DNA of 64,000 bases, from positions 1 to 64,000 of the forward strand of contig JAJRRU010000005.1 of assembly GCA_024279135.1 (NCBI GenBank), read 5' to 3'. A program made the position numbers and the translations under genes. Source of the DNA: Alphaproteobacteria bacterium. GTDB lineage: Bacteria > Pseudomonadota > Alphaproteobacteria > Rhodospirillales > Casp-alpha2. Every line of letters begins with the position of its first letter. The stretch's first letter is position 1. Positions 40,712-61,110 of this stretch are shown here, piece by piece. A model generated the notes under the pieces. That model had not been told where the DNA came from. It saw only the letters and a program-made list of their open reading frames with translations, and ran no database searches.

Positions 40712-42385
40712 ATGGTCGTGCGAAACCGAATACGTTTGTATAGCGGGCTCATCCTCTTTCTGTTCGTAACCGGGCATTTTATCAATCACTCCATGGGAAT
40801 CGTGTCGCTCGATCTGATGAACCGGGCCAGTGAATACTTTATTGATCCGTGGCAATCACCCATAGGCTCTGCCCTGCTCTACGGTTCATTTATAGTCCAT
40901 ATCGGTGTTGCCCTTTATAGCCTGATGCAACGCCGCACGCTGGTCATGCCGGGGTGGGAGGTTACCCAACTGGTTGCCGGATTTCTAGCCCCCGTAATAT
41001 TGGCGGCCCACGTTTCGGCCACCAAGGGTTTGTCGGTCAGTACTGATTTCATACCCGATTATGCGACGACCCTGAATGTGTTCTGGAATTTTTCACCCTG
41101 GCGCGGTGCCTTGCAATCCATCGCCCTGGTGGTGGTTTGGATACATTCGTGTGTCGGGCTGCATCATTGGCTCAGGATTTATCCTGTTTATCAACGATAT
41201 GCCGCTCTTGCTTTTTCACTTGCATTGATCACCCCAACGCTGGCTCTGGCCGGATATGTCAGTGCCGGTATGGAAATCCTGCAACTGGCAAACAATCCGG
41301 ACTGGGTTCCGGCTTTGTTAAAAGCGGCCAATTTCAAACCTGAAATGCTGGATATGATTGCCCAGAGGGAAACCAATATTCAGGTAGCAACCATCAGTCT
41401 GATCTGCATTGTTTTGTTGTTTCGGGTCGTGCGCGACCGGGCCCGCAACCTGCGCCAGCGTCCCCGGCTCTATTATTCGCCGGACAATCGGGTGGTTGAG
41501 CTTCAGCGTGATGCCACATTGCTGGAATCCATTCGCCGTGCAGGCATACCTCACGCCTCTGTCTGTGGTGGGCGGGGCCGGTGTTCGACCTGTCGGGTCC
41601 GTATTTCCTCGGGGCTGGAACATTTGCCCCTGCCGGGTGATGACGAGGAAAAGATCCTGTCGCGACTGACAAACTCACCCTCGGTCCGTCTGGCCTGTCA
41701 GATCAGGCCGACCCAGGACCTGACCGTTTCCGCACTGGTTCGTGTTGACACCGATCCCCATGAAGCCACGCGCCATCCGGGTTATCGCCAGGGCAAGGAG
41801 CTGACCGTTGCTTTTATGTTTGTCGATCTGCGCGGATCAACCCGGCTGTCCGAAGAGCGTCTGCCGTTTGATGTGGTATTTATCCTGAACCAGTTTTTTG
41901 CCGAGCTTTCCCTGGCTCTGACTGAGACCAATGGTCATTACGCTCAATTTAATGGCGATGGGCTGTTGGCCATATACGGCTTGCAAAGCGGTGCCGAGCA
42001 AGGTTGTCGTGAGGCGATCAGTGGCGCACAGGCCATATTCGCCCGCATGGAACAGCTCAATGCCCGGCTGCACGATGAACTGGGCCACGATCTGGAAATT
42101 GGTATCGGTATTCATGCCGGGGAAGCCATCATCGGTTCCATGGGGCCACCTCAGTCGCCCATCGTATCGGCCCTGGGGGACAATGTTAATATCGCCGCCC
42201 GTCTTGAGGCCCAGACAAAAGAACTGGGGGCCCCGTTGGTGTTGTCTGCCAGGACGGCCCGGTATGCCGGTATCGACTTCTCACACTGCCAGATGCACAC
42301 CATCCACGTCAAAGGACGGGTTCATCCGATTGATGTTTATGCGGTTGATGATATGGAAAAAATTATGATCTCGGAAACGCTCTAA
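40712..42385 (+). CDS. membrane [2Fe-2S]-ferredoxin-class III nucleotide cyclase
   Basis: The 557-residue protein has about five or six N-terminal membrane helices (residues 8-240) with several His residues (for example HFINHSM, HIGV, HSCVGLHHW) that could hold haem. A ferredoxin domain follows with C285, C291, C294 and C329 (C-x5-C-x2-C...C), then a class III cyclase domain (about 365-545). Metal Asp residues lie in FVDLRGST and FNGDGLLA. The substrate-Lys position appears to be Gln or Asn, so specificity is uncertain. NVNIAARLE carries the transition-state Asn/Arg. Redox control of cyclic-nucleotide output is the natural inference. Its stop overlaps that of the convergent permease gene. Confidence 0.88.
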   Translation: MVVRNRIRLYSGLILFLFVTGHFINHSMGIVSLDLMNRASEYFIDPWQSPIGSALLYGSFIVHIGVALYSLMQRRTLVMPGWEVTQLVAGFLAPVILAAHVSATKGLSVSTDFIPDYATTLNVFWNFSPWRGALQSIALVVVWIHSCVGLHHWLRIYPVYQRYAALAFSLALITPTLALAGYVSAGMEILQLANNPDWVPALLKAANFKPEMLDMIAQRETNIQVATISLICIVLLFRVVRDRARNLRQRPRLYYSPDNRVVELQRDATLLESIRRAGIPHASVCGGRGRCSTCRVRISSGLEHLPLPGDDEEKILSRLTNSPSVRLACQIRPTQDLTVSALVRVDTDPHEATRHPGYRQGKELTVAFMFVDLRGSTRLSEERLPFDVVFILNQFFAELSLALTETNGHYAQFNGDGLLAIYGLQSGAEQGCREAISGAQAIFARMEQLNARLHDELGHDLEIGIGIHAGEAIIGSMGPPQSPIVSALGDNVNIAARLEAQTKELGAPLVLSARTARYAGIDFSHCQMHTIHVKGRVHPIDVYAVDDMEKIMISETL

Positions 42386-49792: not shown

Positions 49793-51676
49793 TCAGGAAA
49801 CGACGGTCCTTTCCGGTGGGAAACGCACGGTGATAGTTGTCCCTATATTGATTTTGCTTTTGAGTTCCATAGATCCGCCGTGCAGCGCTATCAGATTGCT
49901 GCATATATAAAGACCCAAGCCTGTACCTTCATGTTTTTTAGGCTGAGAACTATCAACCTGCTCGAAAGGTTCCAAAGCCCTGGCAATATCCTTATCGGAT
50001 ATGCCCTCGCCGTTGTCCGCTACTTGAATTACCAAAGAACCGTTCCCATCAACCTTGACGGAAGCGGTGACGTTACCTCCCTCCTGGGTGAACTTGATGG
50101 CGTTGGAAATAAGGTTGTTAAGAATCTGCATTAGCGGCCTGTCGTCCGCGTAAAGCATGGGGACGCCGGGGCCGGTCTCATCGGCAAGACGAATGTTCTT
50201 TGCTTCGGCTTGGGCTTTGTTGAGTTCGACGGATTCCTTGATAAGAGATGCAATGTCTAGCGCCTCTTCGGTCAATTCGTACTTTCCGGCCTCGATCTTG
50301 GACAGGTCGAGAATACCATTTATCAGGCTGACCAGGTTTTTGCCGCTTTTGTGGATGTCTTCGGCATATTCATCATAGTGGGAATCGCCGAGAGGACCAA
50401 AAGAATGCTCCTTCATCATCTCGGCAAAGCCCATGATGGCGTTCAAAGGCGTTCGCAAATCATGGCTCATAACGGCCAGGAACTCTGATTTGGACTTATT
50501 GGCTTTTTCCGCCTCACCCAATGATACCCTCACCAGGGTCGTCTTTTCATGCAGGGTAGCGGTTTGCTCGGCCACCGTTGCGCGTAGTGTTCGTGTCCAC
50601 ATGAAGAAGAAAAAAGCGAAAAACACGACGATGACAAAACCCACAAGCAGAACATTTTGAAGCAGAGTCTGTCTTTCTTCACTTTGACGAATGGGATCAA
50701 AGATAAAATCATTTAGATCGAGGGTTCCCTTGACCATTTTGGCATTCTTGAGTTCTTCGTATATGCGCCGCCAACGCTCAGGGTTTATATGCCCAAGTTC
50801 CACGATCGGGTAGAGCGTGAGCTTTTTTACCTCTTCGCTCTGGAACTGGTTAAAGCCCAAGAGGTCATCGATAGGCATAGTACGGGGCAATTTTTCGACA
50901 ATTGCGGAGATAACTTCTTCCGGATGTTCCAGGGCATAGCGCCAGCCTTTCAAACTTGCATTAACAAACCGTTCGACCATTTCGGGATCGCTCTTGATAA
51001 GGCGGTCACTGGTGATAAGGCCATCGCCATAGAAGTCGATGCCGTAAGTGGATGGGCGCAGTATGGTAAGCGTTTGTCCTTGCTTTTTGGAGCGCCACAG
51101 TGCTGTAAGGGTATAACCTGCATAGGCATCGATCTCCCCTTCTACCAACATGTTGAAACCATGCCCGTCCATTTTCCCGCCCACGTTGTCAGGGTCGATC
51201 CCTTCAGCCCTCAACATCGCCTGAAGTTCTACGTCCGGAAGATCATCATTTGTCCGCCGCACCTTAAGGCTCACCAGATCGGCTGGAGAGTTTAGGTTCG
51301 TCTCACTCTTGGCGAACACCCCTACCGCGCTCTGTTGGAATATAGCGGCCGCCAGAACCAACGGCATTCCACCGTCTCGCGCCACTAGGGCGTCAACGGA
51401 GCCGATACCGAAGTCGGCCCGGCCTTCCGACACTTCCTTGACGGCGAAAACCCTGGTGCGGTCGGGATTAATTGCCGAGCGAATATCAACATCCAACCCG
51501 GCAGCGGTGTAATAACCCTGCCAAAGGGCAGCATAGTAGCCAGCGAACTGGAACTGGTGATCCCAACGCAATTGAAGGGTTACCCTATCCGCTGCGTTCG
51601 TTGGGAAAGACAGTAAGAGCAATGCCGTGATGGGAATGACGAACCGTATTATTTTTTTTATTCCAAGAGAGTCCAT
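49793..51676 (-). CDS. THI5/NMT1-type binding domain fused to a histidine kinase
   Basis: The 627-residue protein has a signal peptide (cleavage near TNAA), then a periplasmic NMT1/THI5/SsuA-like binding domain (LQLRWDHQFQFAGYYAALWQ, about residues 32-330), one TM (about 343-365), a coiled coil, HisKA with MSHDLRTPLNAIMGFAEMM, and HATPase_c with NLISNAIKF, DNGEGI and GTGLGLYI. It has no receiver domain. THI5-like domains bind pyrimidine/thiamine precursors or related small molecules, so it is a likely direct sensor of such a compound. It is convergent with the chemoreceptor gene; the partner regulator is not adjacent. Confidence 0.9.
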   Translation of the reverse strand: MDSLGIKKIIRFVIPITALLLLSFPTNAADRVTLQLRWDHQFQFAGYYAALWQGYYTAAGLDVDIRSAINPDRTRVFAVKEVSEGRADFGIGSVDALVARDGGMPLVLAAAIFQQSAVGVFAKSETNLNSPADLVSLKVRRTNDDLPDVELQAMLRAEGIDPDNVGGKMDGHGFNMLVEGEIDAYAGYTLTALWRSKKQGQTLTILRPSTYGIDFYGDGLITSDRLIKSDPEMVERFVNASLKGWRYALEHPEEVISAIVEKLPRTMPIDDLLGFNQFQSEEVKKLTLYPIVELGHINPERWRRIYEELKNAKMVKGTLDLNDFIFDPIRQSEERQTLLQNVLLVGFVIVVFFAFFFFMWTRTLRATVAEQTATLHEKTTLVRVSLGEAEKANKSKSEFLAVMSHDLRTPLNAIMGFAEMMKEHSFGPLGDSHYDEYAEDIHKSGKNLVSLINGILDLSKIEAGKYELTEEALDIASLIKESVELNKAQAEAKNIRLADETGPGVPMLYADDRPLMQILNNLISNAIKFTQEGGNVTASVKVDGNGSLVIQVADNGEGISDKDIARALEPFEQVDSSQPKKHEGTGLGLYICSNLIALHGGSMELKSKINIGTTITVRFPPERTVVS

Positions 51677-52010: not shown

Positions 52011-52415
52011 TCATATTCCAAGCGCCTGTTTCATTTGAATTTCCAGTTGAACGGCTTTTGGTGGTTTAACGATAAAGCCGTCAATTTTATGGATGCGGGC
52101 TTTTTTGATATTTTTTTCGGTGTCCTGTCCGGTCAGCATCAAGACGGGGATTTTTTTGTACTGGGGCACCGTACCGTACCGGATACGTCGAACCAGTTCA
52201 TAACCGTCCATTTCCGGCATCTCGATATCGCTGATGATTAAATCTATTTGATTGTCCTTGTTCTCCATCAAGCCCAGTGCTTCCAGGCCATTTCCGGCCT
52301 CCAGCACAAGTGAAACGCCGATTTTCTGGAGAATGCGCGAAACAAACCGCAGGGAGAATTCCTCATCGTCAACAATCAGGACTGTCAGAGACTTAAAGAT
52401 ATTGACGTCAGGCAT
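52011..52415 (-). CDS. single-domain response regulator
   Basis: A 134-residue CheY-like receiver with no output domain. The acidic pair is in LIVDDEE, the phospho-acceptor Asp in IISDIEMPEMDG, the switch Thr in MLTGQD, and the Lys in IVKPP. It is the last gene of the nine-gene operon and is paralogous to the next regulator upstream. It is a probable phosphorelay terminus for the operon's hybrid kinase. Confidence 0.9.
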   Translation of the reverse strand: MPDVNIFKSLTVLIVDDEEFSLRFVSRILQKIGVSLVLEAGNGLEALGLMENKDNQIDLIISDIEMPEMDGYELVRRIRYGTVPQYKKIPVLMLTGQDTEKNIKKARIHKIDGFIVKPPKAVQLEIQMKQALGI

Positions 52416-52455: not shown

Positions 52456-52905
52456 TTAACTGCGGCGTAATCGAGCTGGGTCGATGGGTTTGCCGGTTAA
52501 CCCCATTTTAATTTTTGCTTCAAGATCATTTCGCGAAACCGGTTTGGTCAGAAAACCGTGAATGCCGAGCATAACGGCATCATAAATATTGTCTTCATCG
52601 GAATGACCGGTGAGAATAACAACCGGGGTTTCCGGGGCCCGGACTTCGGGGTGTTTTCGCAATGTCTTCAGAAACTCAAGGCCACTGATAATCGGCATTT
52701 CAAGATCACAGATAATTAAATCAAAATTTGTCCTGCTTTGAATGATTTTATTGATGGCTTTCAGGCCGTTATCCGCCTCAGAAGTATTCTTGATGCCAAT
52801 ATCAAACAATATCCTGACAATGAGTTTCCTGATAAAAGGCTCATCATCGATGACTAAAATCTTGATAGTTGAATAATCGATATTATCGTATTCAATGATC
52901 GACAT
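52456..52905 (-). CDS. single-domain response regulator
   Basis: A 149-residue receiver-only protein with LVIDDEP-type acidic residues (here ILVIDDEPF), phospho-acceptor Asp in IICDLEMP, Thr in ILTGHSDEDN and Lys in FLTKPV. The C-terminus is short and basic (DPARLRRS). It lies 40 bp after the hybrid kinase gene and 40 bp before the second regulator; the equal spacing suggests tandem duplication followed by divergence. Confidence 0.9.
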   Translation of the reverse strand: MSIIEYDNIDYSTIKILVIDDEPFIRKLIVRILFDIGIKNTSEADNGLKAINKIIQSRTNFDLIICDLEMPIISGLEFLKTLRKHPEVRAPETPVVILTGHSDEDNIYDAVMLGIHGFLTKPVSRNDLEAKIKMGLTGKPIDPARLRRS

Positions 52906-52945: not shown

Positions 52946-55117
52946 TTATAACGATTTGATGTACGCCGTCACGTCTGCCATGTGATGTTCAAGTTTTGCA
53001 ATGGCCTGATCAATGTTTGGCCAGTCATCGCTTTTCCCGGCTTTTTCAAGGTCTGCACAGACCTCGGCCAATTGATTGGCGCCAACCGCGCGGGATGATG
53101 ATTTAAGCTTGTGCCCGGCGGCCCCCACAGTCGGCCCATCGTGGTCCTGGTAACCCGCCATGATTTCCCGCACGATATCTTCGGACGGTTCAATAAATTC
53201 AAGCAGAATCTCTTTAAATATGTCATCATCGTCACCGAAGATATCCTTCAGGGCCCGGGGATCGATAACGGTCCTATTTGCCTCCCCTGGCTGACTATTG
53301 GCGGGTATTTCATGGCCTTTGTCATTATCTGCCAGCCCATCATCGGGCGGCGGTCCCAAGGGAACCCATTTTGATAAACTGGTTTCCAGCTTATCCATTT
53401 CCAGTGGTTTCATGAGGTAGTCATCCATGCCTATTTCCAGACAATGTTCTCCTTCACCTTGCAGAGTGCTGGCGGTAATGGCAATAATTGGTATGCGAGC
53501 GGTGCCGATCTGTTCGGCTTGCCGAATGGCCTGGGTTAACTGGTAGCCATCCATATGGGGCATATGGCAATCTGTCAGTAACGCACCGTAGTCTCCCGAC
53601 TCCCATGCTTTTAAGGCTTCTACGCCATCTGAGGATATCTCACAGGCATAACCAAGCAAATCTAGCTGACGGCGGATTACATCCTGATTGGTCAAGTTGT
53701 CCTCGGCGACAAGGATCAACTGGCCCAAGGTTTTGGCGTCTTCACGTGACGGGGCTTTTCTTTTTATGCGCGTCGAGCCAGAGTTTTCTGAGGTAACATC
53801 CTCGGCAAGCCGCCCGGTGGCAAGGCCCACGGCGCGAAGTAAAGATCTGCGTGGCAGAGGGCTGCTGCCGACGGACACCACACCGGGTTGGATCAGGCCT
53901 TTTGGAGCCGTCCGGTCACTGTCCAGCAAGACAATACATAATTCTTCTGCCATGGCGCGCAGATCATCGACATCGCGTTTATCACCGCCGTTGATCACCA
54001 CCACATGGATGGGATTGCCGCTGCCAATCATTGTCCGAGCTTCATCCAGGGTGTTGGCTTTTTGGCCGGTGGCACCTTGATGTGTCATATATCGCAGGGC
54101 AAAGTCTGCTTCCATGGGGTTGGCAAATACGGTCAGGATGTTTAACTCAGAAAGTGTTAGCGGGTCTTCTTTATCGGGGTCTGTTGTTGATGGCTCAACC
54201 GGCAGGGTAACGGTAAACGTCGAGCCAACCCCCTGCTCACTTTCAACGCCAATTTCGCCACCCATGATGTCGGCCAGGTTCTTGCAAATAGAAAGCCCCA
54301 GGCCGGTTCCGCCGAAACGACGGGTCGTTGAACCTTCGGCCTGGGTGAACGGTTTGAACAAGTTGCTCAAAGCCTCTTCGGACATACCGATGCCCATGTC
54401 AGTGATTTGCAGGGATATACCATCCTGTGAAGGGCGCCAGTTTTCCACAAAATCCGCTCGAATAATGACCCGGCCCGGGTTGTCCGGCGTATTCTCGGTA
54501 AACTTGACGGCGTTACCGGCCAGGTTGAACAAGATCTGACGGATACGCACTGGGTCGGCCATGATCTGCTCGGGCAGGCCAGGATCAACGAAGGTTATCA
54601 GACGGACGGATTTCTCATTGGCGTTGGATAACAGGGTTTCTGCCACGCCATCGATAATCGCTTCCATGGAAATGGGTAAGATTTCCAGGTTGAGTTTGCC
54701 GGCCTCGATTTTTGACGAATCAAGAATGTCGTTGATGATGTTTAACAATGCAAAGGCGGAATCGCGAACCGTCTGCATCATATGCTGCTGATCGGTATCC
54801 AGGCTTGTTTCACGCAACAGGTCTATCATGCCGACCACACCGTTCATAGGCGTGCGTATTTCATGGCTCATGGCTGCCAAAAAGTCAGCTTTCGCTTTTG
54901 TTGCCGCCTCGGCACTCGATTTTGCCTGTCTGAGGTCTATTTCATTTCGGTCGTTCAGGCGGACCAGTTGTTTGGTTCGTTTAAATAATTTTCGATATTG
55001 CTTGATCAGGTTAGCGAAATCATCACGGGGAATGTTTGCAGCATCTTTGCCATCTTCCAGGAGAGACTCTGCACGGTTTATAATTTCATTTTCGGCGCTG
55101 TATAAATCATATACCAT
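52946..55117 (-). CDS. soluble hybrid histidine kinase with pseudo-receiver, receiver and Hpt
   Basis: This 723-residue protein has no membrane segment. Residues 1-62 form a helical segment shared with the adjacent cyclase (Y41, K43-L44-F45, L51-V52-R53-L54, D56-R57, E59, L62). HisKA has acceptor H85 (MSHEIRTPMNGVVGM), and HATPase_c follows. A degenerate receiver (about 330-450) lacks the acceptor Asp. A true receiver has its Asp in LLTDCHMPHMDG. The C-terminal Hpt domain has its His in AGHKLKSSSRAVGA. This is a complete phosphorelay kinase; the two downstream receivers are likely targets. Input is probably through the N-terminal segment from the SiaC-like protein (inference). Confidence 0.9.
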   Translation of the reverse strand: MVYDLYSAENEIINRAESLLEDGKDAANIPRDDFANLIKQYRKLFKRTKQLVRLNDRNEIDLRQAKSSAEAATKAKADFLAAMSHEIRTPMNGVVGMIDLLRETSLDTDQQHMMQTVRDSAFALLNIINDILDSSKIEAGKLNLEILPISMEAIIDGVAETLLSNANEKSVRLITFVDPGLPEQIMADPVRIRQILFNLAGNAVKFTENTPDNPGRVIIRADFVENWRPSQDGISLQITDMGIGMSEEALSNLFKPFTQAEGSTTRRFGGTGLGLSICKNLADIMGGEIGVESEQGVGSTFTVTLPVEPSTTDPDKEDPLTLSELNILTVFANPMEADFALRYMTHQGATGQKANTLDEARTMIGSGNPIHVVVINGGDKRDVDDLRAMAEELCIVLLDSDRTAPKGLIQPGVVSVGSSPLPRRSLLRAVGLATGRLAEDVTSENSGSTRIKRKAPSREDAKTLGQLILVAEDNLTNQDVIRRQLDLLGYACEISSDGVEALKAWESGDYGALLTDCHMPHMDGYQLTQAIRQAEQIGTARIPIIAITASTLQGEGEHCLEIGMDDYLMKPLEMDKLETSLSKWVPLGPPPDDGLADNDKGHEIPANSQPGEANRTVIDPRALKDIFGDDDDIFKEILLEFIEPSEDIVREIMAGYQDHDGPTVGAAGHKLKSSSRAVGANQLAEVCADLEKAGKSDDWPNIDQAIAKLEHHMADVTAYIKSL

Positions 55118-55125
55118 GGTTTGGA

Positions 55126-56166
55126 CTATTTTCCCTTTACGGCACGTAACCTTTTTAAAGCGACTTGCATTTTGCTAATGGCTTGCGGGCGTGTAATCTC
55201 GTCCAGTTTGTCAAAATCAAGGAACAGGGTCATGCCGTCATTTTCGGCTCGGAGAAACCGGCTCTGCTCATCGATATTTTTATAAATGCCGATCAGTTTA
55301 TAAGGATTTATTTTGCGGTGAATGCCTTTTACCGTGATCGGGTCCCCCATCTCGACATCGACAAAATCTTTCACCAGGGCGTAGGTCTCGTATGACAGGG
55401 TGATCCCGTCGGCATCGGCAACGTTTTCCAGACGGGCGGCCAGATTTACCTCGCCCCCGATGATCGTATAATCCATACGCTGTTCGCTGCCAAAGTTTCC
55501 CACATTACAATATCCGGTGTTGATGCCAATGCGCACCTGGAACGGTCGGGCATAGCCCATTTCAGTCCACTTGGCGCGTAGGCTGACCATGTGCCGTTGC
55601 ATGGCGATGGCCATTTTAACGCAGGAAAGGGCATCTTCCTTAACGCCTTTGCTGGTCGGGTCACCGAAGAAAACCAATATGGCATCTCCAATAAACTTGT
55701 CGATTGTGGCACCGTGGTCCAGGGCAATTTTCGACATTTCGGTCAAATAATCATTAACCAGAAATGTTATATCCTCGGGTTCCAGGTCGTCGGTGGTAGC
55801 CGTAAAATTCTTGATGTCGGAAAAAAATATGGTCAGTTTCTTGCGCTTTGTTTCAAGCACGACGTCGTGGTCACTGCTGAAAATTGAATCATAGATTTGC
55901 GGGGATAAATATTTTGATAGTTTGCCGGACAGGCCTTCCAGCATAGTATTTTTTTCATCCAGCGATTTTGCCGTTTTATTCAGTTCAGCTTCGCTGCGGT
56001 CACTCAGGCGAACCAGTTTTTTAAGTGAGCGGAATAATTTTTCATAAGAATTAAGCAGGATCTCGAATTGTTTAATCGCGTCTTTATCGACACAGTTACC
56101 ATCGCTCAGGAAGGCATGCGCCGTCTGAATGGCATCTTCTTCTTTCTTAAAAAGGTCGAACCCCAT
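55126..56166 (-). CDS. class III adenylate/guanylate cyclase in a Sia-type operon
   Basis: A 346-residue cytoplasmic protein. Residues 1-62 are the helical segment shared with the hybrid kinase downstream, followed by a coiled coil (about 60-85) and a class III cyclase domain (about 108-290). Catalytic residues are complete: metal Asp D117 (FSDIKNFT) and D161 (FIGDAIL), substrate residues K157 and D232 (which favour ATP), and transition-state N241 and R245 (NLAARLE). It overlaps the siaC-like gene by one base and takes the place that the diguanylate cyclase siaD has in Pseudomonas. No GGDEF domain is present. Confidence 0.9.
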   Translation of the reverse strand: MGFDLFKKEEDAIQTAHAFLSDGNCVDKDAIKQFEILLNSYEKLFRSLKKLVRLSDRSEAELNKTAKSLDEKNTMLEGLSGKLSKYLSPQIYDSIFSSDHDVVLETKRKKLTIFFSDIKNFTATTDDLEPEDITFLVNDYLTEMSKIALDHGATIDKFIGDAILVFFGDPTSKGVKEDALSCVKMAIAMQRHMVSLRAKWTEMGYARPFQVRIGINTGYCNVGNFGSEQRMDYTIIGGEVNLAARLENVADADGITLSYETYALVKDFVDVEMGDPITVKGIHRKINPYKLIGIYKNIDEQSRFLRAENDGMTLFLDFDKLDEITRPQAISKMQVALKRLRAVKGK

Positions 56167-56552
56167 CAGACAGCAATTTTCTTCAGCTCGAACTTGGCAT
56201 TTTCAAGGTCTTCACCAAATTCTTCACCCATTTCCTCCATATTGTCATCGTCTTCTTCAAAGATCCAGGTGATCAGGACGTCATTGTCGTTGGCTGCTGC
56301 CTCATCAAGAATCTCGAAAAGTCCCATGAGAACCTTTGCCGTGGAACTGTTGAAATAAATCAGTTCAAAGGTAAAGTGCACTTTTCCCCCGGTAAGCTCG
56401 TCCAGGTATTCTTCCAGTTTGCCGATGACCGGCCCATAAAAATCAGTCACGTCTTCAGGGTACGATTCCCCCTTCAGCAAAAACGTATTGGCACTGAAAT
56501 CAAAATTGACTTCCGGCGAACGTTCCTGTGCTTCAATATTAATGTTTTCCAA
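56166..56552 (-). CDS. siaC: SiaC-family regulatory phosphoprotein (DUF1987)
   Basis: A 128-residue STAS-like protein with the family features GESYPEDVTDFYGPVIGKLEEYL and FELIYFNSSTAKVLM. The stretch N68-S69-S70-T71 matches the phospho-acceptor motif of Pseudomonas SiaC, where Thr68 is phosphorylated by SiaB and dephosphorylated by SiaA. Unphosphorylated SiaC there binds and activates SiaD. A very acidic segment (about 100-115) precedes the C-terminus. It sits between the kinase-like and cyclase genes in the canonical order. Confidence 0.88.
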   Translation of the reverse strand: MENINIEAQERSPEVNFDFSANTFLLKGESYPEDVTDFYGPVIGKLEEYLDELTGGKVHFTFELIYFNSSTAKVLMGLFEILDEAAANDNDVLITWIFEEDDDNMEEMGEEFGEDLENAKFELKKIAV

Positions 56553-56566
56553 TTTATTCCCCTATT

Positions 56567-57124
56567 CTACAAATATGCTATTAGGCAAAAATATGAATAA
56601 TCAGAGTCAATATCCATAAAGTCGTGCTTGAATTCTCTGGCGCGACGGGCAATGTCTATGAAACCAACTCCGGCCCCCTTGCTGCCTTCCGGTGTGTCGC
56701 CTTTCAGGGTTTCCTTGTACAATAATTTCAAACCATCTTTATCCAGGGTATTAATGTGATTAAGCGACGCATCAAGCCGTTCAACATCTGACTTCAAGAT
56801 CAAATTGCAGCATGACACAAAATACATGCCGTCTTTTTCGCCCACAGTCAGTACGCCGTAGCGTAATTCCCTTGCTGACTCGTTATTATCATTATCGCCT
56901 GTAATTTTTTCGGCGGAATAGCGGATGACGTTTTGTACTTGTTCAACAAAGATCGAAAACAATGTTCTGGAAACACTTTTTTCGGTCTTTTCAAGTTCAA
57001 GCTTTTTCTTCATGGCGCTGCCGATCCCGCTCAACACCTCCTCGGTCATATAACCGCTGTAGCAGAAAATGATGCCCCTCTCCTGCAGGTATCCCCGGAA
57101 TTCATACATTTCTTCGGCCAGCAT
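56567..57124 (-). CDS. siaB: SiaB-family protein kinase (DUF6272)
   Basis: A 185-residue GHKL-type kinase. The N-box appears as IFVEQVQNVIRYS (about residue 60) and the glycine lid as GSKGAGVGFIDIARRA (near residue 160). By homology it phosphorylates the SiaC-like protein using ATP. It lies 13 bp after the SiaA-like gene and 14 bp before siaC. It is fairly well conserved in length with the Pseudomonas partner family. Confidence 0.87.
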   Translation of the reverse strand: MLAEEMYEFRGYLQERGIIFCYSGYMTEEVLSGIGSAMKKKLELEKTEKSVSRTLFSIFVEQVQNVIRYSAEKITGDNDNNESARELRYGVLTVGEKDGMYFVSCCNLILKSDVERLDASLNHINTLDKDGLKLLYKETLKGDTPEGSKGAGVGFIDIARRAREFKHDFMDIDSDYSYFCLIAYL

Positions 57125-57137
57125 TATAACGTCCTCA

Positions 57138-60100
57138 TTATTCGATTTTGAAACCGATTACCGCGACATCATCACGCCGTCGATGAGCTGCCTGATAGTT
57201 GATCAGTGCTTCACGTATACATTGTCGCTGATTTTGCATGTCTTTGTCCTGTATATCCAGCAATAGCTTGCGGAAACGATTTTTGCCAAACATGCGATTT
57301 CGCTCACCGCCAATCTGGTCGACTAATCCATCTGACGTCATGTAAAAACTTTTACATGCCAGATTGACGATTTCATGTTCCTCAAAGACTTGGTCATGAG
57401 GTATGCCGTGATAACCAATACCGCTTTTGGCACCCTTGATGACGCTGATGCCCCCGTTTTCAATAAGATACAATTCAAAACGGGCGCCAACGAATATTAT
57501 CTTGTCCATTTTCGAATTTAAAAAACAGATGCCCAGTTCCATTCCGTCATCTGATTCGCCTTTGTCCCCATGCTGGCCCAGTGTCACCTGAACAAGCTGA
57601 TGTATGTGTTGCATCAGTTCAGCGACTTCGCCGCTGGAAACTGCGGACAGGGCATTGTCAAGGGCGCCGGTCGCAATCAGCGTCATAAAGGCACCGGGAA
57701 CACCGTGGCCTGTGCAATCGCCCAGAATAATCAGGAAACCATCCCCCCACATACGGCTCCAGTATATATCACCGCCAACAACGTCGCGTGGTTCCCATAA
57801 AATAAAGTGGTCAGAAAGCAGGGATGAGAACAAGACGCCGTCAGGTAACACGGAGCGCTGAATGCGGGCGGCATAATCAATTGAGCTCGAGATCACGTTG
57901 TAGGCATCGGATAGTTTATTCTCAGCCAGTTTACGCTCGGTGATATCATAGAGCCAAACCAGGGCGGCTTTCTTTTTCTGGTATTCTATGGGGCTGATGG
58001 ACATCAGCGTCCAAAGCTCCCGACCATCCTGGGAATGAATGATTTGTTCTGTATTACGCAAACTCTTGCCTTCGTTGAGGGCGACTTGGTGTTTATCCCT
58101 GCTTTCACTTTTCATAACGAAACTATCGGTTCTGAATGTACCGATGTCAGATTCTGAAATTCCGAGCATGTCCAGAAACTGTGGGTTGCCGAACTGAACC
58201 TGTCCGTCGTCTGCCGAGCGATCATCAAGCGAGATACTGACGGCGATCGGGCTGTCTTCAAGAATGCGGCGGAATTGCTCCTCGCTCCTGCGCAGGGCGT
58301 TCTCTTGGTTTTTTCGCTCGGTGATATCGGTGAATGTACTGACAAAACCACCGCCGGGTAACGGCCCGCCCTGGATTTCAATGATTGTGCCGTTGGGTCG
58401 TGTGCGTTCAAAGCTGTGTGCAACAAATTGTTTGGCGCGCAGGATTTGATCGTGGATGATCTCCTCCGGATCACCACTCTTGAACTCACCGCGCTCAACG
58501 TCGAACTCGATCCAATCGACAAAGGAGGCACCCGGTTTGCTCAGCTCATCGGGCACATCGCGAATTTCCTGGAATCGTTTGTTGGAGATAATCAGCATCA
58601 ACTCTTTGTCATAGGCAACCAGACCCTGATTGATACTACCCAGCACGGCTTCCAACAGGGTCGATTTGTGCTCCAGTTCCTGGGTTCTTTCTTCAACCAG
58701 GTTTTCAAGATTTTCCTGGTATTGTTTTACTTCATTTTTGGCCGCCTCTTCCTTTTCCTGCATTTCATTATAGGCTCGCACGACCTGGCCCAATTCATCA
58801 CCGCTTTCCCACAGGACGGGTGTTCTGATATTCTCTGTCTTGGTTCTTTCAATGGCCTGTCGCAAGTGCAGGAGTGGGCGGGATATCACCCGGTTGACCG
58901 CAAACAAGGTACTGGTGATGAGGCTGGCCAATAAAACCAGCAAGATTATTGTATTGACCTTGAGGTGTTCGATCACAAGCTGCCAAATTTGTTTACTGTG
59001 GACCGTTACGACCAGACGGCCAATCAGGTCTGTCGTTCCATCGGATGGAGAGAGCAAGGCCCGGTCAATTTTAAAATCCGGCATTTCGGGCGCTGTCTTG
59101 ATATCGCCCACCTGGCCCATGATGATGTCGGACGAATCGTAAACGGCTGCGCCCTGAATATGGGATAAAAGCAGAAAGTCGCCCAAAAGACGCCGGATCT
59201 GGTCAATATCGTATTCCCATACCGCAGACTGGAAAGCCGCACTCTGGATGGTAACGACATTTTTAAGTGATGAAATTAACTGATCGCGTTCTTTCTGATA
59301 GAACATGACTTCCAGGATCAGAAACAACACAATAGCGGCAATTGCGACCAGTGGCACATAAATGGCGAGCAGCTTCGATGTCAACGTTCGGAAGGAAGTA
59401 TTTTCTTCATCCGTCTGTTCTTGGCCTTCGGTTACACCCGCTATTTTGCGGACGCGTTTCATATTATAAAAACGCCACCCGGTTAACCCTGCAAAACTAA
59501 TAATGATGATGGCGACCGCCCCGAACAGCAGCCGGTTTGTTGTCCAGAAAGGTTCGCCCTCACCATGCCAGCGGTCATAGATTTTATCGTAAGCCGCCGA
59601 TTGGGTGAATTCATATGTCGCGGTTTGCAGGCGGACCAGCAGATCGGGCAAATCCTTTCTTACGGCGATCGCTCTTTTGATCGTTAAAAGGGGTGGTTCG
59701 AGCTTACGGATTTGATTTTCCAGCTTGAGCTCTCGGGCGATTTTCCAGGTGCTTGTATCTGGATATACAACGCCATCCACACGACCGCTTAACAGGGCGA
59801 TTAATGCATCCTGGAAAACTGGAAAGATCTTCGTTTTAAGGTCATCTCTGTTTAACAGCACCCGCGCACCGGCATTGGCATCGACGGCACCGATAATTTG
59901 TCCCGAAATATTATCCAGCTGATTGAATTTGGATGTCTCGTTTTTAACGAACACAGATATATCAAAAAATTCCAGAGGCATGGTAAAGGTGGCGAATTTT
60001 TCGCGATTATCCGATATGCCGAGATTTGGGATAATATGGGCTTCACCGTTGATCAAGGCATCCTGCGTTTCCCGCCAGGTATCCTTGATAACATAGGTAA

Positions 60101-60323
60101 CCTTGATGTCGGCAATGTCTGCAACAGCGTCCATAACCTCGATTGCAAACCCTGTGGGTAAGCCAGCCTCGTCGATGGAATACTGGGGCGGAAAACTGCG
60201 CGGGATGGCCGCGATGATTGTGCTCAGGTCATTACCCGTCGGATCAGCCGCACGCGCAGAGGGAACGTCAGAGATAAGCAGCCAGACAGATAATGCAAGT
60301 AGACAGGAGAGCAAGCGGTTCAT
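57138..60323 (-). CDS. siaA: SiaA-like PP2C phosphatase with SBP_bac_3 sensor, HAMP and PAS domains
   Basis: A protein of about 1061 residues: signal peptide, periplasmic SBP_bac_3 domain (FPPQYSIDEAGLPTGFAIEVM), TM, a cytoplasmic linker, TM, a second periplasmic sensor, TM, HAMP, coiled coil, two PAS domains, and a SpoIIE/PP2C phosphatase domain with metal Asp residues in DVVGGDIYW, LGDCTGHGVPGAFM and RRDDVAVIGF. The start is the ATG at 60323 in front of the signal peptide, just after the upstream stop; an earlier in-frame ATG adds 14 residues. Pseudomonas SiaA has no SBP domain, so ligand input here is different. It should dephosphorylate the SiaC-like protein. Confidence 0.9.
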   Translation of the reverse strand: MNRLLSCLLALSVWLLISDVPSARAADPTGNDLSTIIAAIPRSFPPQYSIDEAGLPTGFAIEVMDAVADIADIKVTYVIKDTWRETQDALINGEAHIIPNLGISDNREKFATFTMPLEFFDISVFVKNETSKFNQLDNISGQIIGAVDANAGARVLLNRDDLKTKIFPVFQDALIALLSGRVDGVVYPDTSTWKIARELKLENQIRKLEPPLLTIKRAIAVRKDLPDLLVRLQTATYEFTQSAAYDKIYDRWHGEGEPFWTTNRLLFGAVAIIIISFAGLTGWRFYNMKRVRKIAGVTEGQEQTDEENTSFRTLTSKLLAIYVPLVAIAAIVLFLILEVMFYQKERDQLISSLKNVVTIQSAAFQSAVWEYDIDQIRRLLGDFLLLSHIQGAAVYDSSDIIMGQVGDIKTAPEMPDFKIDRALLSPSDGTTDLIGRLVVTVHSKQIWQLVIEHLKVNTIILLVLLASLITSTLFAVNRVISRPLLHLRQAIERTKTENIRTPVLWESGDELGQVVRAYNEMQEKEEAAKNEVKQYQENLENLVEERTQELEHKSTLLEAVLGSINQGLVAYDKELMLIISNKRFQEIRDVPDELSKPGASFVDWIEFDVERGEFKSGDPEEIIHDQILRAKQFVAHSFERTRPNGTIIEIQGGPLPGGGFVSTFTDITERKNQENALRRSEEQFRRILEDSPIAVSISLDDRSADDGQVQFGNPQFLDMLGISESDIGTFRTDSFVMKSESRDKHQVALNEGKSLRNTEQIIHSQDGRELWTLMSISPIEYQKKKAALVWLYDITERKLAENKLSDAYNVISSSIDYAARIQRSVLPDGVLFSSLLSDHFILWEPRDVVGGDIYWSRMWGDGFLIILGDCTGHGVPGAFMTLIATGALDNALSAVSSGEVAELMQHIHQLVQVTLGQHGDKGESDDGMELGICFLNSKMDKIIFVGARFELYLIENGGISVIKGAKSGIGYHGIPHDQVFEEHEIVNLACKSFYMTSDGLVDQIGGERNRMFGKNRFRKLLLDIQDKDMQNQRQCIREALINYQAAHRRRDDVAVIGFKIE

Positions 60324-60324
60324 T

Positions 60325-61110
60325 TCAATTTGCCTTTTTCTCAAAACACGAATAATCCTTGTCACATAGTGGAAGGTTCATTTCGGCGAGTTTCAACAAG
60401 ACTGAAATGACATGGCGTCGAATTTCTTCAAGTTCTCCGGCATCTTTCATAGCTTGCAATGTTTTCGACAGGGCCGGAACCAGATTTTTGTGTTTTTTAT
60501 GAACGTAATGAAATAGCTCAAACCGCATAATCGCCGGCGACAGCTCACGCAAACCCTTAACACCCAATTGTTTAATCTGATATTTCCCGTTCAGGCTCGG
60601 TGAGACGATAATTTCAAAACGCTTTTTGTCGAGCATATTAAACAGGGTTTTATAATCACTGGCCGATAACACATTCATGTCGGCCGTATGACGTTCAGCG
60701 AATTTTATCCCCCGGATAATCCCGATCTTATAGGGTCGCAAGCTTTCCCAACCCTCGACCTCAAAATCGACCGACTTGGAGAAAACAACACCTTTAATAT
60801 AATTAATCGGGGGGTATATTTGAATCAAATTTGGATATTTGGAGGCAATGCCATCAATCCGCTGGACTTCGCCATCTACAGTACCCTGGTTAGCCAGTTG
60901 CAGAGCCCTCTCGGCGGGGTATTTTTTAATGATGACGTCAATACCCATGCGGCGGTAAGCCTCCCTGATTATCACCTCGCTGATCACGGTATCGACGGTG
61001 TTAACAGGGGTCACCACAATCATCTGTGCTGATATTGCCAGCTTACCTGACGTTATGGATATGATCGCGGCAAGAAACAGGGCGGACAATACTGTTGTTT
61101 TTATCGTCAT
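60325..61110 (-). CDS. secreted SBP_bac_3-type binding protein
   Basis: A 261-residue periplasmic binding protein with a signal peptide (about 1-28, cleavage near AISA) and the family features AYRRMGIDVIIKKYPAERAL and DGEVQRIDGI. It has no transporter partner. It lies two bases upstream of siaA's start and eight bases after another binding-protein gene. It may present ligand to, or compete with, the SBP domain of SiaA (inference). A Cys pair near the C-terminus (CDKDYSC) could form a disulfide. Confidence 0.82.
   Translation of the reverse strand: MTIKTTVLSALFLAAIISITSGKLAISAQMIVVTPVNTVDTVISEVIIREAYRRMGIDVIIKKYPAERALQLANQGTVDGEVQRIDGIASKYPNLIQIYPPINYIKGVVFSKSVDFEVEGWESLRPYKIGIIRGIKFAERHTADMNVLSASDYKTLFNMLDKKRFEIIVSPSLNGKYQIKQLGVKGLRELSPAIMRFELFHYVHKKHKNLVPALSKTLQAMKDAGELEEIRRHVISVLLKLAEMNLPLCDKDYSCFEKKAN

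Follow-up and report, generated by a model that had tools for sequence, protein, structure and literature searches.

The window analysed here, the 64,000 nucleotides that open contig JAJRRU010000005.1 of an Alphaproteobacteria assembly (GCA_024279135.1; Rhodospirillales, Casp-alpha2), encodes a SiaABC-type switch followed by a class III nucleotide cyclase and a hybrid histidine kinase. We propose, with a probability of roughly 0.78, that this switch controls the cyclase, which probably makes cAMP, and that it very likely acts on the neighbouring hybrid kinase too. Residues 2-70 of the cyclase (core RLSDRSE) look like the stalk by which SiaC grips the diguanylate cyclase SiaD, a second copy of this module is found on the kinase, and across genomes the stalk tracks SiaC.

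In Pseudomonas aeruginosa, SiaB phosphorylates and SiaA dephosphorylates SiaC at T68; in its unphosphorylated form SiaC attaches to the stalk of SiaD and favours formation of the active dimer (PMC8457831, PMC12834913, PMC7278518, PMC7647112). A phosphate on T68 blocks SiaD binding (PMC8457831, PMC12834913, PMC7278518).

The SiaABC core

By its sequence the core of the locus is a SiaABC-type module, with a PF09345 SiaC, an adjoining SiaB-type kinase, a PP2C-type SiaA with a membrane sensor and a serine acceptor all present. SiaC scores 139 bits against PF09345 (cut-off 24.5) and is the sole match to this family in the 98%-complete genome of the window; the NCBIfam SiaC equivalog cut-off is not reached (87 of 150). 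SiaB attains 184 bits with the NCBIfam model SiaB_fam_kinase (NF038262, cut-off 85), stays below the P. aeruginosa equivalog cut-off (94 of 225), and keeps the E..QN motif as judged by eye from the alignment to 6kko_A. The SiaA C-terminus (residues 812-1075) matches the NCBIfam SiaA model at 258 bits, below the equivalog cut-off of 700; its true start may be the ATG at 60323, again by eye.

An earlier, sequence-only reading of the locus pointed to an NSST acceptor stretch in SiaC. This is present as N68-S69-S70-T71, with S69 aligned to P. aeruginosa T68 (6kko_C alignment), and Ser69 is the predicted phosphoacceptor, which would be reversibly phosphorylated. The acceptor column of 101 SiaC rows holds Ser in 94 and Thr in seven, all Thr rows being GGDEF-linked. 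Among the 14 SiaD-contacting SiaC residues listed in PMC8457831 (P. aeruginosa numbers), seven are identical in the window protein (Y31, Y65, N67, S69, M75, E110, D114), four show a conservative change (D29, T68, D79, L107) and three are changed (Q10, I71, R103). The same reading placed the module at 55126-57124: SiaB, SiaC and the cyclase do lie in that interval, SiaA outside it (Table 1). Its gene order, siaA-, siaB- and siaC-like genes and then a class III cyclase with a one-base overlap, is borne out by the Pfam and NCBIfam matches and by the sequence TGATG, in which the SiaC stop and the cyclase start have one base in common.

The class III cyclase

The cyclase matches PF00211 (E 6.5e-27), and its best solved relative by sequence is the catalytic domain of P. 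aeruginosa CyaB (3r5g, E 6.4e-69). As the sequence-only reading stated, the catalytic residues are in place: D117 and D161, which we take to be the metal-binding Asp pair, K157 and D232, presumably the substrate pair, and N241 and R245, likewise with presumed roles. K157 and D232 are the same as the substrate residues of 3r5g, and the window enzyme is probably an adenylate cyclase, making cAMP. The likeness to CyaB-type adenylate cyclases covers the catalytic domain (54-55% identical in the Foldseek alignment). The N-termini differ, that of the window cyclase being the stalk module and that of P. aeruginosa CyaB a MASE2 membrane domain. The 50 Foldseek rows listed for the cyclase model are cyclases and uninformative on the stalk.

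A SiaD-like stalk on cyclase and kinase

The helical stalk of P. aeruginosa SiaD offers SiaC two binding motifs, and the contact residues are given in PMC8457831. The cyclase N-terminus, for which Pfam returned no significant match, carries K50-L-V-R53-L-S55-D56-R57-S-E59 at the place matching the SiaD motif, and the hybrid kinase has Q-L-V-R-L-N-D-R-N-E at the corresponding place. A 34-row stalk alignment and profile (A1) was built with other GGDEF-linked stalks included and no Pseudomonas-type SiaD rows. Its core is near invariant (S in 32, D in 34 and R in 32 of the 34 rows), and the position of SiaD Q86 is Glu or Gln in 33. No Pfam model describes the module: five families matched, each in two or fewer of the 34 rows.

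Searched against the PDB, A1 places SiaD (7e6g) second (E 0.011, 18.9 bits); the aligned part, residues 58-97, is the proximal SiaC-binding motif. Conversely, a search of NCBIfam with the window cyclase stalk by itself gives the SiaD model as top match (positions 51-94, E 0.0014); with the kinase stalk that model comes second (E 0.018), TorS being first. The SiaD model was also run on ten proteins or stalks of other loci (six pieces, four whole proteins), where three of four cyclase-linked ones matched (E 0.0019 to 0.02); the L094 cyclase did so at positions 9-54, the distal rather than the proximal motif. The stalk's tie to SiaD is thus direct for the cyclases and, since the SiaD model missed the HD- and kinase-linked proteins of other loci, runs for those through a clear match to cyclase stalks. 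An AlphaFold2 model of the cyclase has a helix at residues 7-21 followed by one continuous helix at 28-84 (mean pLDDT 75.3, and 61 to 83 in ten-residue blocks over positions 21-80). The cyclase stalk sequence is a weak but in-register match to the SiaC-binding stalk motif of SiaD, and we predict it to be a SiaC-docking segment.

Co-occurrence of stalk and SiaC

A1 finds a stalk in 58 of 398 genomes of the phylum: 55 have both stalk and SiaC, three stalk only, 12 SiaC only and 328 neither (Fisher p about 1e-51). At E<1e-6 these counts become 52, 1, 15 and 330 (p about 3e-50). The 331 genomes lacking SiaC thus contain three stalk matches, one of them at E<1e-6. A freer test is given by the 25 stalk places that lack a SiaC within 10 kb on the same contig, 22 of which lie in 17 SiaC-bearing genomes; some may be SiaC-linked after all, as these are contigs without a SiaC match and some places are near contig ends. 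The remaining three, in SiaC-lacking genomes, are one strong (G124, 88% complete) and two weak (G279, G266). Twenty of the 22 were read, giving HD (8), PP2C (6), hybrid histidine kinase (3) and cyclase (2) proteins and one partly masked fragment. Short stalk-bearing PP2C phosphatases occur on contigs without a SiaC match (L247, L249, L250, L251, L252, L254) and could be docked SiaC phosphatases or further outputs.

The association was also followed from the cyclase side, by a scan of genome contigs with six SiaC-linked cyclases. In the best 80 of 575 relatives, which are not a random sample, a stalk is present in 13 and SiaC is in the locus of all 13; the 67 without a stalk include none with SiaC, although one beyond a contig end could be missed, as 22 of the 80 span less than 8.6 kb. 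One of these loci, from Magnetococcales (L150), shares its cyclase with survey locus L046; its recovery was by construction. Another, from a Rhodospirillales bacterium (L151), has the same one-base overlap as the window and is its nearest relative by SiaC. Further loci with stalk-cyclase and SiaC come from Pseudodesulfovibrio, Ruegeria atlantica CECT 4292, Methyloceanibacter superfactus (SiaC in two ORFs) and Curvibacter. In two of the 13 stalk-cyclase loci (L217, L221), those of SAR92 H231 and Porticoccaceae, the cyclase is on the strand opposite to SiaBC. The SiaA sensors differ as well, with three SBP_bac_3 stretches in L151, MHYT and TorS-type domains in L159 and 7TMR-DISM in L186. Sensor and effector thus both change among loci, with SiaB-SiaC kept.

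The effector swap proposed by the sequence-only reading no longer rests on gene order alone, because the cyclase carries a SiaD-like stalk that tracks SiaC across genomes and cyclases; these comparisons lend the swap support.

Survey of SiaC neighbourhoods

Five of the 48 genomes searched in the family, and 67 of the 398 in the phylum, have a PF09345 match. In all, 91 SiaC neighbourhoods were compared: the window and 90 loci, drawn from 83 places in the phylum (79 used) and 14 in the family (11 used). The places not used are the window's own, which occurs in both lists, together with G188, G115 and G226 (fragments or weak) and L013 and L014 (fragments). All 12 class III cyclases found in these neighbourhoods, with a profile started from the window cyclase, carry the N-terminal stalk module. 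A profile of the 12 stalks was then run on 5688 ORFs of at least 60 aa (the 90 loci and window 48-64 kb) and returned 56 at E<1e-6, the 12 training sequences and 44 new ones: 23 HD proteins, 15 GGDEF proteins, five histidine kinases and one PP2C. Of the new ORFs, 38 lie no more than 300 bp downstream of SiaC on the same strand. Eight GGDEF proteins, SiaD-type included, come next (E 5.6e-4 to 0.2); unrelated ORFs follow from E 1.1. The nearest A1 stalk gene within 3.5 kb of SiaC (n=91, excluding 14 SiaC ORFs of 13 named loci) encodes a class III cyclase in 12 cases, an HD-type protein in 23, a GGDEF protein in 20 and a histidine kinase in four.

Pfam assigns representative stalk proteins the architectures GAF-HD_5 (the 680-aa class), HisKA-HATPase, Guanylate_cyc and Guanylate_cyc-PilZ; 'HD-GYP-type' is a label chosen here for the HD_5 proteins. 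The stalk is linked to at least five enzyme types, namely diguanylate cyclase (GGDEF), HD-GYP-type phosphodiesterase, class III cyclase, histidine kinase and PP2C phosphatase. The PilZ domain binds c-di-GMP, and the two stalk-cyclase-PilZ proteins (L081:6063-7760, L255:1053-2774) suggest cross-talk of two messengers. No ORF with both a SiaC and a cyclase domain, a natural fusion, occurs in the survey or the named loci.

On balance we favour the view that SiaC is a general switchable adaptor whose docking stalk is joined to at least five enzyme types, one SiaC setting several outputs and here jointly gating cAMP synthesis and a His-Asp phosphorelay. If this is true, a single-pathway biofilm switch would become a widespread plug-in architecture, in which variable sensors act through SiaB-SiaC on variable enzymes via a short docking segment. 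Candidate SiaC targets could then be named from sequence alone, including those encoded away from SiaC, and serine phosphorylation would be linked both to cAMP and to two-component signalling.

Other candidate effectors in the genome

With E up to 1, A1 has two matches in the genome from which the window comes: the cyclase, at 85.1 bits, and the hybrid kinase, at 82.6. The genome also has 14 class III cyclase (PF00211) and 10 GGDEF matches, and none of these besides the window cyclase matched the profile at that threshold. A GGDEF effector elsewhere that binds this SiaC, which the sequence-only reading named among the findings that would overturn it, is hence rejected by sequence (none of 10 with a stalk), with the limit that a very diverged stalk could escape A1, as the profile misses some Pseudomonas-type SiaD stalks. 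It missed three SiaC-bearing genomes with SiaD-type neighbours (G070, G193, G345). Possible receivers of the messenger are present, as 10 cNMP-binding domain matches.

Proposed mechanism and alternatives

We infer, by analogy from the shared stalk and the kept residues, that the SiaD mechanism transfers to the cyclase and the kinase. SiaB would phosphorylate SiaC at Ser69, and SiaA, sensing via its solute-binding domain, would take the phosphate off. Unphosphorylated SiaC would then dock on the N-terminal helical stalks of both effectors and stabilise a parallel stalk dimer. Class III cyclases work as dimers, so docking on the cyclase would pair its two catalytic domains and raise cAMP; docking on the kinase may bias its signalling helices. 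With one motif per chain, a cyclase dimer would take up two SiaC molecules. That SiaC binds these stalks, that it activates and does not inhibit, that the cyclase makes cAMP and that the kinase is under SiaC control are all predictions from sequence comparison.

Several observations weigh against control of these effectors by SiaC. No stalk gene lies within 3.5 kb of 32 of the 91 SiaC genes by the A1 profile; in four of these loci (L084, L119, L125, L132) inspection by eye shows a GGDEF or HD effector whose motif is weaker. The cis stalk matches arise partly by construction, because A1 rows came from SiaC neighbours, shared ancestry was not removed from the counts, and 15 first-look candidates were scored in most listed genomes of the 398. 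The PDB search with A1 ranks a designed coiled coil first (E 0.0028), above SiaD, and the profile must therefore be partly a generic helix. The NCBIfam SiaD model matches 13 of the 34 A1 rows at E up to 0.01, some of which may be GGDEF-linked; it matched none of six HD- or kinase-linked proteins or stalks of other loci, and all its stalk matches are far below the 290-bit cut-off. In the A1-7e6g register, 5 of 13 SiaD stalk contacts are identical in the cyclase (K77, R80, S82, D83, R84) and three conservative; R74, Y85, M88, R90 and D91 differ. The kinase stalk has Asn at the S82 position, and the cyclase has one stalk motif where SiaD has two.

The sequence-only reading missed the second stalk-bearing protein, the hybrid kinase encoded by the next gene, with kinase, receiver and Hpt motifs all present. 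That this kinase is the real SiaC client, the cyclase being secondary or vestigial, or the reverse, we consider unlikely. The stalk scores are close (85.1 and 82.6 bits), family relatives G025 and G026 encode stalk-bearing hybrid kinases (L233, L234; about 47% identical to the window kinase) and HD proteins on contigs without a SiaC match, and a 55%-identical kinase, cut by the contig end, sits beside another SiaC (L098, in G013). Against these stand the catalytic motifs in both proteins, the overlap of SiaC with the cyclase gene, and the lack of a stalk kinase beside the cyclase in the other 24 stalk-cyclase loci, some of which end soon after the cyclase. The start of a further stalk runs off a contig end in L232, possibly one gene with the L098 kinase.

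Control of the cyclase could also run with the opposite sense to SiaD, SiaC binding the stalk and inhibiting the cyclase, or phospho-SiaC being the active form. Docking by itself does not set the sign, and stalks occur ahead of HD-type and phosphatase domains too, for which a different direction may be the useful one. We judge this quite unlikely, given that unphosphorylated SiaC activates SiaD and T68 phosphate blocks binding (PMC8457831, PMC12834913, PMC7278518), that the acceptor is kept as Ser69, and that dimer promotion suits class III cyclases.

A product other than cAMP, such as cGMP, is decidedly improbable for the window enzyme. The stalk-cyclase family is not uniform, four members (L047, L079, L081, L083) lacking the K/D pair, and the structural matches include Cya2, a guanylyl cyclase; the window enzyme, however, has K157 and D232 as in CyaB 3r5g. 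The cNMP-binding domains in the genome do not tell cAMP from cGMP.

That the cyclase is simply co-transcribed with SiaABC and unbound by SiaC, its shared N-terminus a generic coiled coil, is very improbable, since the top-ranked designed coiled coil and the HD- and kinase-linked proteins or stalks missed by the SiaD model are countered by the scarcity of profile matches in SiaC-lacking genomes, by the 22 unlinked stalk places in 17 SiaC-bearing genomes (against one strong and two weak in SiaC-lacking ones) and by the near-invariant SDR core. Operon coincidence as sole explanation was rejected on the co-occurrence of stalk and SiaC in genomes and across CyaB-like loci.

SiaC tree and probable effector swaps

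A SiaC tree of 101 rows was built by a quick method from 122 columns. Of its 96 inner branches 43 are open, and it contains two pairs of identical rows; L084, L119, L125 and L132 were labelled by hand, and L092, L096 and both L173 rows left out. The output labels require 12 changes for cyclase, 12 for HD and four for GGDEF, and starred branches force at least 2, 4 and 1 of these changes, respectively; swaps between cyclase and HD outputs therefore look repeated. The window SiaC falls into a weakly supported group of 11 together with L151 and L152, the rest comprising six HD-linked and two unlabelled rows. Its nearest relatives mostly have HD-type or cyclase outputs, and GGDEF-linked SiaCs are mostly on other branches of this weakly resolved tree.

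Direct descent of the cyclase-type module from a SiaD-type one is not suggested by the tree, with its few columns and open branches. The sequence-only reading had the cyclase acting instead of SiaD, a wording that is too narrow given the mostly HD-type or cyclase outputs of the nearest SiaC relatives; a direct swap from SiaD is not what the tree points to.

Relation to known systems

The window module shares with SiaABCD of P. aeruginosa the PP2C phosphatase, the SiaB kinase, SiaC, the gene order and an effector stalk with a SiaC-binding-type motif. It differs in effector (class III cyclase and hybrid kinase versus the diguanylate cyclase SiaD), in acceptor and motif number (Ser69 and one stalk motif versus Thr68 and two), and in its SiaA, which comes with PAS domains and a solute-binding sensor domain. 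A GGDEF effector with a SiaC-binding stalk was looked for and none was encountered, so the module is not SiaABCD. In HsbR-HsbA-HsbD and BgrV-BgrR a STAS-like protein controls a diguanylate cyclase (PMC8457831; for HsbA-HsbD also PMC7647112); those systems use STAS-domain proteins and a diguanylate cyclase output, whereas the window uses SiaC. The SiaC-SiaD structure paper already suggested that SiaC-family proteins modulate adjacent proteins (PMC8457831); added here are a docking module, a set of output types and two proposed clients, the cyclase and the kinase. Searches of one open-access library listed no account of a nucleotide cyclase under SiaC control apart from SiaD, and no relevant one linking SiaC to HD-GYP proteins or histidine kinases, or partner switching to adenylate cyclases.

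Gene organisation

Transcription runs from the two small genes upstream of siaA through siaA, siaB, siaC, the cyclase and the hybrid kinase to two receiver-only regulators and a further histidine kinase.

Table 1. Features of the SiaABC-cyclase-kinase locus in the window.
Feature	Coordinates	Strand	Evidence and remarks
First of two small proteins upstream of siaA	61119-61907	minus	No Pfam match
Small protein just upstream of siaA	60325-61110	minus	SBP_bac_3 match below cut-off (Pfam)
SiaA-like membrane PP2C phosphatase	57138-60365	minus	Pfam SBP_bac_3, HAMP, two PAS, SpoIIE; signal peptide by eye
SiaB-like kinase	56567-57124	minus	NF038262 (NCBIfam SiaB_fam_kinase) above cut-off; 6kko_A alignment
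SiaC-like phosphoprotein	56166-56552	minus	128 aa, TTG start; PF09345; 6kko_C alignment
Class III cyclase, CyaB-like, predicted adenylate cyclase	55126-56166	minus	346 aa; PF00211; 3r5g; catalytic residues
Predicted SiaC-docking stalk module of cyclase	55957-56160	minus	Core R53-L-S-D-R57-S-E59; A1 profile, NCBIfam SiaD model, AF2 helix
Hybrid histidine kinase HisKA-HATPase-REC-Hpt	52946-55117	minus	Pfam; A1 profile; second stalk-bearing protein
Predicted SiaC-docking stalk module of hybrid kinase	54917-55111	minus	Core R-L-N-D-R-N-E; A1 profile; weak NCBIfam SiaD match
Response regulator, receiver domain only	52456-52905	minus	Pfam; possible relay partner, inferred from position
Response regulator, receiver domain only	52011-52415	minus	Pfam; possible relay partner, inferred from position
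Further histidine kinase with NMT1 sensor domain	49793-51676	minus	Pfam

The gene with the weak SBP_bac_3 match adjoins siaA, whose own sensor is likewise an SBP_bac_3 domain. A second class III cyclase domain in the window, at 41804-42340 (plus-strand ORF 40712-42385), has no match to the stalk profile.

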